This document shows positions 3,094-6,257 of a DNA stretch of 42,029 nucleotides, piece by piece. Under the pieces are notes generated by a model. The model did not search any database. It was not told where the DNA came from and was given only the letters and a program-made list of their open reading frames with translations. The stretch's first letter is position 1. Every line of letters begins with the position of its first letter. The position numbers and the translations under genes were made by a program. The stretch is from Chloroflexota bacterium (GTDB lineage: Bacteria > Chloroflexota > Dehalococcoidia > Lucifugimonadales > Lucifugimonadaceae): the NCBI GenBank assembly GCA_002714425.1, contig PAXI01000001.1:8109-50137 (forward strand), given 5' to 3'.

Positions 3094-3125
3094 GAGAGTT
3101 AAAAATTTTAACTCTCTTTTTTTTT
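3094..3125. terminator. Terminator after groEL
   Basis: GAGAGTTAAAA (3094-3104) pairs with TTTTAACTCTC (3106-3116) and is followed by a run of nine T. An A-run on the left side gives the mirror T-run on the minus strand. It therefore probably ends both groEL and the converging DUF5343 gene. Confidence 0.85.
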
Positions 3126-3821
3126 CTACTCTTCGCCTGATAGAATCTCATATAATTTATTCATACCATCAAGCCATTTAATTTGAACATCAGAGTTCCA
3201 TGATGGATCATAATCTGGATACTTAGACAATATCTTACTTGCTAGTTCAAATTTATAAGAAACTTCTTTATTGATATCATTTGTAACTTTTGTATCTATC
3301 TGAATTTTATTACTAGAATCGCTTATATCATTAGATAATTTTTTTAAAGTACTTTTATTTCTTGTTTTTCCATGTCTGCCAGCTAAAATATGTTTTGAAA
3401 GTTTTATTCCAGCAAATTGGGCAGCTCTGATAAAAAAAGCTTCGCATTTCACAATAACCCCTTCTTTTGTTCCAAAAGATTTGAAGGCCTCTCTAAATTG
3501 ACCCTTACTTGCTCTTGAAAGATCTAATCTGAAGACTGGCTCATAAAAGTCACTTAAAACACTGTAAAGGACAGACTTTCTTTCTTCTCCCTCGGCAAAT
3601 ACTAACCCTTCAAGAGATTTTTTTGGACGACCATCCTGATCAATTAAATTTAAAACCTTTAAAGTTGTCATTAATTGTGTACCTGAGCTACCAGAAAATC
3701 TTGCCCCCCAGACGCTTCTGTCTATTCGGTCTGGAATTCCTTCATCAAATAAAAATTCCAAAAAAGTTTGGAATGTACGATAGGGAACATAGGGAGGAAT
3801 TGTTTTTTGCTCTTGAAACAT
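3126..3821 (-). CDS. DUF5343-domain protein of unknown function
   Basis: About 231 aa from the ATG at 3821; a TTG at 3836 would add five residues, and neither start has a strong Shine-Dalgarno. The N-terminal half matches what I recall of DUF5343: PYVPYRTFQTFLEFL, then GIPDRIDRSVW, then a TQLMTTLKVLNLID helix that looks like a winged-helix core. A basic, Ser/Asn-rich linker (roughly residues 150-190) precedes a C-terminal helical segment ending GMNKLYEILSGEE. There is no signal peptide or membrane segment. It is divergent from the ParB-like gene, with an inverted repeat in the 98-bp gap. The function is unknown; DNA binding is an inference. Confidence 0.6.
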   Translation of the reverse strand: MFQEQKTIPPYVPYRTFQTFLEFLFDEGIPDRIDRSVWGARFSGSSGTQLMTTLKVLNLIDQDGRPKKSLEGLVFAEGEERKSVLYSVLSDFYEPVFRLDLSRASKGQFREAFKSFGTKEGVIVKCEAFFIRAAQFAGIKLSKHILAGRHGKTRNKSTLKKLSNDISDSSNKIQIDTKVTNDINKEVSYKFELASKILSKYPDYDPSWNSDVQIKWLDGMNKLYEILSGEE

Positions 3822-3880
3822 ATTTTTTATTCTCAAAACTACTAAAATTATATACTTTACAATTAAGAATATATCCCATA

Positions 3881-3908
3881 AATTCTAAAGTCAAATCATT
3901 TTAGAATT
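3881..3908. promoter_or_regulatory. Perfect inverted repeat, operator candidate
   Basis: AATTCTAAA (3881-3889) and TTTAGAATT (3900-3908) form 9-bp perfect arms separated by 10 bp. The half-site centres are 19 bp apart, about two helical turns. It lies 12 bp before the ParB-like start at 3920 and inside the divergent spacer with the DUF5343 gene. There is no T-run, so a terminator is unlikely. Autoregulation by the neighbouring helix-turn-helix protein is an inference. Confidence 0.5.
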
Positions 3909-3919
3909 GATTGTTTCCC

Positions 3920-4897
3920 ATGTTGGACAGTTTTAGAAATTACTTTTTGGAATGTAGAAAATTAAAGTATGAAAAATTATTTTATATTGAAAGGCGTAAA
4001 AAATTGAGGATACCTATAAACGAAATATTTCCTAATCCAGATATTCCTAAATCAGAAAAAAGAGAAAATTCTAAACCAAATAACAAATTTAAAAAGAACC
4101 CTGTGGTTCTTGCAACAAAAAATGGTTATGTTTTATTAGCTGGTACTAGCAAAATATCATATGCAAAAGAAAGGGGGGAAAGTTCCATAGAATGTACGGT
4201 AAAAGAATATGTAAATGAGCAAGAAAAATTTGAGCTTTTATTATCTGAAAATTACCACTCTTCACTTATGTCGCCTATGGATCTTGGCGGATCTTTTATT
4301 AAGTACAGAGAAAAGTATGACATAACACAGCAAGAATTAGCACGAAGAACAGGAATAACTCCAGGAACAATACATCACTATGAAAGCCTAATTAGAACTT
4401 TAAACCCTAAGCTTGGCGAAGCTCTGTCTGCAGGGTTATTAACATTTAAAGAAGCAAGATCTATAGCAGACTTAGACGATCATGACAGGCAAATGGAAAT
4501 AGCTAAGCCGTTCCTTGAAGGAAAATTATCAAGTGTTTATGTAGAAAAAATAGTTGGTCGAGCAAAAATAGCCTCGATACTGAGTGTAGATCAAATAATT
4601 GACGAGGTAGTAAATGGAAAAAAATCTCATATTGTGAACAAAAATGATAATTTGTCTAGATTAGAAAGAAAGCCTAGCGCTACTAGTACTGAATTAATTG
4701 AAAACTCAATCTTAAAAATTGCAGGAGAATTAGAAGCTTTACAGATAAAAAATATTCCTGAGTATAGGAGGCTGAAATTAATTAGTAGTCTAAGGATACT
4801 GGAGACCAGGCTTAAGTATTCATTAAACAACTTAAATGGAGGTTTTACGTCTAAGTATAGTACGCCAAAATCCTATTCAAATAGAATAAAGGTTTAA
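3920..4897 (+). CDS. ParB/KorB-like DNA-binding protein with degenerate N-terminal domain
   Basis: About 325 aa from the ATG at 3920; a TTG at 3911 is also possible. The ParB-like N-domain is seen as IPINEIFPNP (near residue 30), then a YVLLAG strand, then LLSENYHSSLMSPMD, which matches the ENLQR-x-DL-x-P-x-E region of ParB. The CTP-binding GERR motif is replaced by LAGTSKISY. A KorB-type helix-turn-helix follows: DITQQELARRTGITPGTIHHY, then GEALSAGLLTFKEARSIADL. A basic linker and two C-terminal helices could dimerise. No ParA or parS site is visible. A transcription regulator descended from ParB is as likely as a partition protein. Confidence 0.7.
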   Translation: MLDSFRNYFLECRKLKYEKLFYIERRKKLRIPINEIFPNPDIPKSEKRENSKPNNKFKKNPVVLATKNGYVLLAGTSKISYAKERGESSIECTVKEYVNEQEKFELLLSENYHSSLMSPMDLGGSFIKYREKYDITQQELARRTGITPGTIHHYESLIRTLNPKLGEALSAGLLTFKEARSIADLDDHDRQMEIAKPFLEGKLSSVYVEKIVGRAKIASILSVDQIIDEVVNGKKSHIVNKNDNLSRLERKPSATSTELIENSILKIAGELEALQIKNIPEYRRLKLISSLRILETRLKYSLNNLNGGFTSKYSTPKSYSNRIKV

Positions 4898-4931
4898 ATT
4901 TAATTTTATGGAGACAGATATAAATTCTATA

Positions 4932-5055
4932 TATAATGCGGACACATTTTGTATAGAACTCCTAAATAAAAAAGACTATTGTATTTAGGAGCGATTGTCT
5001 CTTCCGGTTATGGTCATAAAAACGCCCCTCCTCTTACGCCTCTGGAGGGGCGCTT
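4932..5055 (+). ncRNA. Possible small RNA or leaderless hairpin transcript
   Basis: The 136-bp gap after the ParB-like gene holds a consensus TATAAT at 4932-4937, a perfect 10-bp stem (CTCCTAAATA 4959-4968, TATTTAGGAG 4982-4991, 13-nt loop), and a GC-rich terminator-type hairpin (5023-5052) followed by CTTTT. A transcript of about 110 nt would fit. I do not recognise an RNA family, and the -35 region is poor. The first hairpin lacks a T-run, so it is not an ordinary terminator. Confidence 0.25.
5014..5052 (-). terminator. Terminator of the MFS transporter gene
   Basis: A 9-bp GC-rich stem (CGCCCCTCC at 5023-5031, GGAGGGGCG at 5044-5052) stands out in this AT-rich sequence. Read on the minus strand it is followed by TTTTTATG. 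One arm lies inside the last codons of the transporter gene, so the hairpin overlaps the coding end. Confidence 0.8.
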
Positions 5056-6257
5056 TTCATAGGTAATACTAAGGATAAAGTTGCGCCAATAAGAGCTATA
5101 ATACCTGAAAAAATTACTACGCCATGAAATCCACTTGATTCGTTTATTATGCCGGCAAATATCGGTGTTATAGAGCCAATTACTGACCCGCCAGTAAACA
5201 TTAAGGCCGTACCTGAGCCTTCAGATCCTTTGTCAACCATATCCATAGCAGCGGCATTTATTATTGGCATAACAGAAAAAAAGAATAAACCTAAACACCC
5301 AACAAGAAAAGTCATCATAATACCACTATCAAAAAATAAAAATAAAAAAATTAAAATTGTCATTAAAATCATCGCAAAAGAAATAACTGGCCTCCTACCT
5401 AACTTGTCCGAAAAGTTGCCCATTATTGGAGTGGAAATGATACCTGCCATGGTAATTAATGCAACATGAACACCCACAAGAGTATTTGAGTACTCAAGAA
5501 CTTCACGCATGTAAATAACTAAAAAAACCTGAAAGGAGGTGTGAACTGCTCCTCTCATAGCCCCAAGCAAGGCCATGCCTAGAACACTATAATTATTTAA
5601 TAGAGTTTTTGCAGATCGAAAATAGTCTCTAATAGCGATATTACCCTCAGATTCACTTCCAGCAGACTTAAACTTAAAAATTACCAATAGCCCTGTTATT
5701 ATCATGGGTATTGATAAACATACAGCAATTATTCTCCATGAAATACCTGAGAAAAAGACGTAACTTCCAATTGTTCCGGCCAAAAGAAAACCTATAATTA
5801 TTGGCGACGCAGTATTTCCAATTTGAGCTCCGGTCAAATGAGCTGACATTGCAAACCCTCTTCTCTCGGGGTATCTAGCTGCAAGAGTACCAAAAGCTGG
5901 GGCATGCCATAATGATGTACCGAAACCGATAATAGCTACTCCAAAGAGTAATGCCCAATAAAGCGGAGAAACACCTATTATGAAATAACCTAACCCAACC
6001 ATAATCATAGATATAAAAAGTATCCATGCAATTTTTTTTCTAAACATGTCTGTTAGTATTCCTGCTGGAATGTTCGCAATTCCTGATGATATAGATTGAA
6101 CAGTAGATATACCACCTACTCCTACATCTGAAAGACCTAATGTAGATTTTATGCTAGGTATCATGACTAGAAGAGCACCTTGGCCAAAATGCTTAACTCC
6201 ATGACCGGCTGACAGGCCATATAACAATGACATTGATTGCTTATTTTTTTTACCCAA
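5034..6257 (-). CDS. MFS transporter, 12-TM, fosmidomycin-resistance-like
   Basis: This inner-membrane major-facilitator transporter (407 aa) has about 12 hydrophobic segments. It has the loop 2-3 motif GILTDMFRKK and its C-half repeat GNFSDKLGRRP. The start GHGVKHFGQGALLVMIPSIK resembles the Fsr-type exporters. The TTG at 6257 follows the aminotransferase stop by one base, giving translational coupling; the ATG at 6233 is an alternative 399-aa start. Pairing with an aminotransferase suggests transport of an amino or keto compound, but the substrate and direction are unknown. Confidence 0.8.
   Translation of the reverse strand: MGKKNKQSMSLLYGLSAGHGVKHFGQGALLVMIPSIKSTLGLSDVGVGGISTVQSISSGIANIPAGILTDMFRKKIAWILFISMIMVGLGYFIIGVSPLYWALLFGVAIIGFGTSLWHAPAFGTLAARYPERRGFAMSAHLTGAQIGNTASPIIIGFLLAGTIGSYVFFSGISWRIIAVCLSIPMIITGLLVIFKFKSAGSESEGNIAIRDYFRSAKTLLNNYSVLGMALLGAMRGAVHTSFQVFLVIYMREVLEYSNTLVGVHVALITMAGIISTPIMGNFSDKLGRRPVISFAMILMTILIFLFLFFDSGIMMTFLVGCLGLFFFSVMPIINAAAMDMVDKGSEGSGTALMFTGGSVIGSITPIFAGIINESSGFHGVVIFSGIIALIGATLSLVLPMKSAPPEA

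Follow-up and report, generated by a model that had tools for sequence, protein, structure and literature searches.

KorB of plasmid RK2 and VirB are ParB-type regulators of transcription that use CTP switching (PMC11790492, PMC10770331). In addition, a survey of orphan ParBs has described ParB-like proteins located outside parAB operons, some of which bind other NTPs, and includes 17 tested proteins without nucleotide binding; its stress is on mobile elements, and Chloroflexota are not mentioned in its main text (PMC12704722). Here, we have analysed an orphan ParB/Noc-like gene that lies divergent from a DUF5343 gene in a Chloroflexota bacterium. The window, by which we mean the whole stretch of DNA analysed, is 42,029 nucleotides long, and its family and genus are referred to below as f1 and g1. 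Similar to Noc and ParB, the ParB-like protein shows the same arrangement of N-domain and helix-turn-helix (HTH), matches them in both sequence and structure, and is usually encoded near dnaA. In contrast to them, its CTP boxes II and III are decayed, it has neither a ParA motif nor a ParA partner, no parS accompanies it, and its C-terminal part differs, being helical with no Pfam match. As for KorB and VirB, an action on promoters and not in partition is proposed, but the pocket is degenerate as judged by sequence, the gene is chromosomal and family-wide, and the fold is closer to Noc than to KorB. Like the orphan ParBs of the survey it is encoded outside a parAB operon, yet its gene is fixed in the chromosome and tied to DUF5343. 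The explanation that we regard as probable is a two-protein, vertically inherited regulatory locus, composed of DUF5343 and an orphan ParB/Noc-type protein, in which divergent promoters are controlled by short boxes (Table 1).

Table 1. Coordinates of the features of the locus, numbered from the first nucleotide of the window.
Feature	Position	Strand	Details
Terminator-like hairpin	3094-3116	-	putative terminator for DUF5343
DUF5343 protein	3126-3821	-	231 aa; PF17278 above cut-off, AlphaFold model
Inferred leftward sigma-70 promoter for DUF5343	3866-3894	-	TTGACT-17-TATTCT; consensus scan
Inverted repeat AATTCTAAA-N10-TTTAGAATT	3881-3908		left arm overlaps leftward -35 and spacer
Conserved TTTCCC element	3914-3919		intergenic alignment
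Conserved GGACAGTTTTAGAAATTACTTTTTGGAAT block	3925-3953	+	intergenic alignment; homologous block in sister families
Inferred rightward promoter for ParB-like gene	3934-3962	+	TAGAAA-17-GAAAAT
Third half-site TTTTTGGAAT	3944-3953	+	inside GGACAGTTTTAGAAATTACTTTTTGGAAT block
Orphan ParB/Noc-like protein	4004-4897	+	297 aa, TTG start
Degenerate CTP box II	4142-4153	+	residues 47-50, GTSK replacing GERR; alignment with class ParBs
Near-invariant HTH region	4295-4414	+	residues about 98-137; invariant alignment columns
RNA hairpin with invariant loop CGGACA (4939-4944)	4928-4955	+	
Second hairpin, downstream strand and terminator hairpin (5023-5052) of the same RNA	4959-5057	+	

The divergent gene pair

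The leftward gene had been called DUF5343 in an earlier note on this DNA, and its protein does score 31.7 bits against PF17278, above the gathering cut-off of 27. The AlphaFold model (mean pLDDT 81.9) predicts a helical, DNA-binding-type fold with an N-terminal part like a winged helix; its best structural matches, both weak, are BrxA (7zge, Z 6.0) and SspB (6lb9, Z 5.2), and the C-terminal part has no Pfam match. No function has been described for DUF5343, and the literature searched does not mention the domain. The domain match is shared with the PADLOC candidate profile PDC-M34A, which DUF5343 matches weakly (E 2e-6; 23 of 37 members); it matches no other M34 profile, and the ParB-like protein matches none.

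The rightward gene was previously begun at 3911. Because stops break up the frame upstream of TTG 4004 in genomes of the same genus, and because homologues from other genera begin at the equivalent position, several with a good ribosome-binding site, TTG 4004 is most likely the coding start. With the start at 4004, the intergenic region would therefore be 182 bp long, with the inverted repeat in its middle. The protein contains a ParB-type HTH (PF17762, 40.2 bits), and searches of the PDB with phmmer and with a profile returned Spo0J, Noc and ParB. In its AlphaFold model (mean pLDDT 80.6), which was also searched with Foldseek, residues 1-191 adopt a ParB/Noc fold and align to Noc (7nfu) with Z 15.2. 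The ParB N-domain and the HTH noted earlier thus stand, but not the assignment of the HTH to the KorB type, since Noc/ParB structures (Z 15.2 and 14.6) are closer by Z than those of KorB (Z 11.8, for 8qa9, and 9.7). Against the NCBIfam Noc model TIGR04285 the protein scores 40.3 bits, below the cut-off of 315. Between genera of f1, identity is 0.70 in the HTH and 0.31 in the N-domain, compared with 0.51 and 0.48, respectively, among five ParBs of the class; these values indicate a frozen HTH and a drifting CTP domain.

In a first set of f1 genomes, the 36 that hold the pair, representing 12 genera, all have the two genes side by side in divergent orientation. The same holds for 33 of 35 further f1 loci, and the remaining two are at contig ends. 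The earlier proposal that they form a unit is therefore borne out at 69 of 69 assessable loci in genomes of one family, which are not independent of one another, and linkage in these relatives is established. In a larger f1 sample DUF5343 was found in 70 of 76 genomes, the six without it being 56-85% complete, and one f1 genome (G015, 69% complete) lacks both genes. G496 has two copies of DUF5343, on contigs C8 (L135) and C16 (L134), the latter at a contig end; either contamination or duplication may account for them. G009 carries a second, divergent DUF5343 gene (L123, 5110-5832) that has no ParB-like neighbour in the stretch fetched. The genes that flank the pair differ among genera, with a groES/groEL group in some and, as read from the sequences, an SbcCD-like pair in others.

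The pair had also been thought defence-like. A two-gene defence or toxin-antitoxin-like module would fit the weak PDC-M34A match and the weak BrxA/SspB fold likeness of DUF5343. However, the pair is near-universal and single-copy in f1, its neighbours (groEL, for example) are ordinary genes, neither a nuclease nor a toxin domain was found, and relatives of the pair were not found in plasmid and viral collections; together, the PADLOC, PHROGs, plasmid and viral searches yielded one weak profile at most. A defence role is unlikely, and such a module we consider highly improbable. The pair is instead a core, single-copy, chromosomal and usually dnaA-proximal locus of one family, and the best reading is a regulatory pair that is inherited vertically, controls its own expression and does not spread.

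The intergenic control region and its probable reader

The perfect 9-bp inverted repeat reported earlier is present exactly at 3881-3908, with a 10-bp spacer. By itself it is unremarkable and not significant, as its chance is about 12% among equally composed random intergenic regions; it carries weight because it is conserved across genera, being kept as ATTCCAAA..TTTGGAAT in most of them. The intergenic alignment contains the conserved blocks TATCCC, ATTCCAAAGTCAA, TTTGGAAT, TTTCCC and GGACAGTTTTTGAAA-N8-TTGGAAT. Models built with one genus left out recovered the control element in the right place at E<0.005 in 11 of 12 genera, the element of held-out g10 being missed (best E 0.046), and the model trained without the window's own genus placed its element at 3865-3963 with E 3.7e-18. 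The operator-like element that was suggested to serve both genes thus belongs to a control region conserved across genera. The full composite pattern is carried by 20 genomes, including that of the window, each time as a single copy and always at this locus. The dyad alone also has a single copy in the window's genome, and a multi-copy parS-like site was rejected on that ground.

An RNA hairpin was likewise rejected for the repeat. We treat the repeat as a DNA element because its left arm overlaps the putative leftward -35, it is upstream of each inferred transcript start, and the region shows no stronger folding than shuffles (z 0.25). The -35/-10 spacing of the putative leftward promoter is kept in most genera, and the rightward promoter, weak in the window, is better in other genera, for example TTGAAA-17-GATAAT. 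Consensus promoter matches in the region are no more numerous than in shuffles, and conservation is their sole support. Both putative spacers hold a TTTGGAAT-like box. When half-site changes were compared by eye across genera, the DUF5343 protein and the ParB-like HTH both varied with phylogeny.

Which protein reads the boxes can be approached through other families of the order, in which DUF5343 is present without the ParB-like gene. In f3, f9, f11 and f16 the region upstream of DUF5343 is laid out in the same way: TGCCA/TGGCA half-sites are accompanied by a GGACA-TTTGAAA block and by a further, third half-site. Homology of this sister element rests on the common layout and the GGACA-TTTGAAA-N8-TGG block; direct profile comparison failed on the window, where the sister-family element model did not find the element at E<10. 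Given its presence in families that lack the ParB-like gene, the control element appears to be independent of that gene, and its presence therefore does not count as evidence of binding by the ParB-like protein. By the same reasoning the boxes were probably DUF5343's first, DUF5343 is more likely their original reader, and the ParB-like gene was probably captured later than the boxes. Alternatively, the ParB-like protein could be the main reader and repress both genes, similar to KorB without CTP, as its frozen HTH and the conservation of the dyad within f1 would suggest. The homologous element before DUF5343 in families without the ParB-like gene argues against this, and we hold it to be doubtful.

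In the sister families, GC-rich segments replace the ParB-like gene after the same promoter (L100 and L128 in f9, L101 in f3, L102 in f16, L125 in f11), and in f3, f11 and f16 the segment sits between DUF5343 and a gyrA-like gene. The two that were tested fold strongly (z -5.1 and -4.5), and these segments are candidate non-coding RNAs. At L126 (f19) and L127 (f22), the divergent neighbour of DUF5343 is another small gene, of 84 aa in L127.

CTP pocket, partition partners and the replication origin

Canonical ParBs of the class have GERR as CTP box II, and the change to GTSK in the window, previously read from the window alone, is seen in the alignment with them. Across f1, the box is GTSK in g1, GERK in g12 and GERRWR in g4, and has otherwise diverged. 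Box III (ENxQR) is ENYHS in the window, with E and N kept and QR lost; across the family E is kept in most genera and N in few, and QR is lost. Decay of the CTP boxes appears family-wide yet uneven, and, given the GERRWR of g4, some members of f1 may still bind CTP. The outside relatives G232 and G347, the nearest, were rejected as ancestors: they keep GERRWRA, and their fetched neighbourhoods contain no DUF5343.

No parA adjoins the window locus, in agreement with the earlier note, and AAA_31 matches are restricted to other contigs of the window genome. An intact CTP pocket together with a nearby ParA was not encountered, though g4 keeps GERR. A ParA-binding motif of the LGRGL type is absent from 36 ParB-like proteins, and the parS consensus, with 0-1 mismatch, has no site in f1 genomes. 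HTH_ParB has one copy in the window genome, that is, there is no second ParB-type HTH, and beyond f1 it is found in 1 of the 23 other families in this order, which is thus largely without canonical ParB. Contig C21 of G052 has two exact parS consensus sites (85272 and 97933), though no ParB-type HTH was found in this genome. Because most of the CTP switch is lost and the HTH is frozen, the ParB-like protein is most likely a fixed, DNA-bound, non-spreading partner.

In 15 of the 18 genomes checked, the locus and dnaA share a contig and are about 5-75 kb apart (the distance in G014 assumes a circular contig). The locus is 501 kb from dnaA in G030, and dnaA is on a separate contig in G011 and G031. 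In most genomes dnaA is found on the downstream side of the ParB-like gene. Together with Noc and ParB as the closest structures, and with an order largely without canonical ParB, this proximity raises the idea of a factor for the origin domain or for nucleoid occlusion, in which a Noc/ParB relative would mark the origin region with the intergenic element as a single centromere-like site. We judge this unlikely. As dnaA is nearly always on the same side, the position of the locus may simply reflect ancestral gene order, and the distance in G030, the one composite site per genome, the decayed CTP box and the absence of parS and of an adjacent ParA all speak against such a role.

The RNA 3' of the ParB-like gene and the proposed mechanism

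Stem-loops had been described as setting off the module on both sides. That at 3094-3116 is terminator-like and follows DUF5343, but that at 4959-5052 is part of a longer, covarying structured RNA at 4909-5057, 3' of the ParB-like gene. The RNA is ordered as a hairpin with the CGGACA loop, a second hairpin, a loop-to-downstream pairing, which makes a pseudoknot likely, and a terminator hairpin. The CGGACA-loop hairpin is common to 34 copies in six genera (g1, g2, g4, g8, g11 and g12), and 10 of its 11 stem pairs show changes on both sides in these 34 sequences. For the whole structure, 33 of 39 pairs have changed on both sides, and the covariation score is 0.397 compared with at most 0.151 for slid structures, a score somewhat favoured by drawing the structure partly from the same sequences. 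Beyond these genera, the covariance model gave weak matches in g9 only and no match in sister families. No Rfam match at gathering level was obtained at the locus or for the sister-family segments, and sub-threshold matches to known RNA families were judged to be chance.

In the two-protein reading that we favour, the DUF5343 and ParB-like genes would be transcribed back-to-back from two promoters, each with a TTTGGAAT-like box in its spacer, and a third copy would complete the 3881-3908 repeat. Both genes would be autoregulated, being repressed or tuned through site-specific binding at the boxes. DUF5343 would have read the boxes first, given that sister families lacking the ParB-like gene have the same architecture upstream of DUF5343. 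The ParB-like gene would have been captured under the rightward promoter in the ancestor of f1. With its HTH frozen and most of the CTP switch lost, the ParB-like protein would serve as a fixed DNA-bound partner, not a sliding clamp. A tentative extension, which we think possible at best, is a three-part protein-protein-RNA locus, in which DUF5343 would be an ancestral autoregulator of a divergent unit, apparently a structured RNA in sister families. In f1 the orphan, CTP-decayed ParB would have been inserted behind that promoter and ahead of a different structured RNA, probably with a pseudoknot, forming a fixed nucleoprotein/RNA regulator in bacteria without ParABS.

The locus points to a structured RNA without an Rfam match, and DUF5343, an uncharacterised domain, gains a testable partner and a target site. 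The ParB-like protein would be a clean example from nature of how a relative of ParB can leave the CTP switch behind with its DNA-reading part frozen, fixed throughout a family where no ParABS was found.
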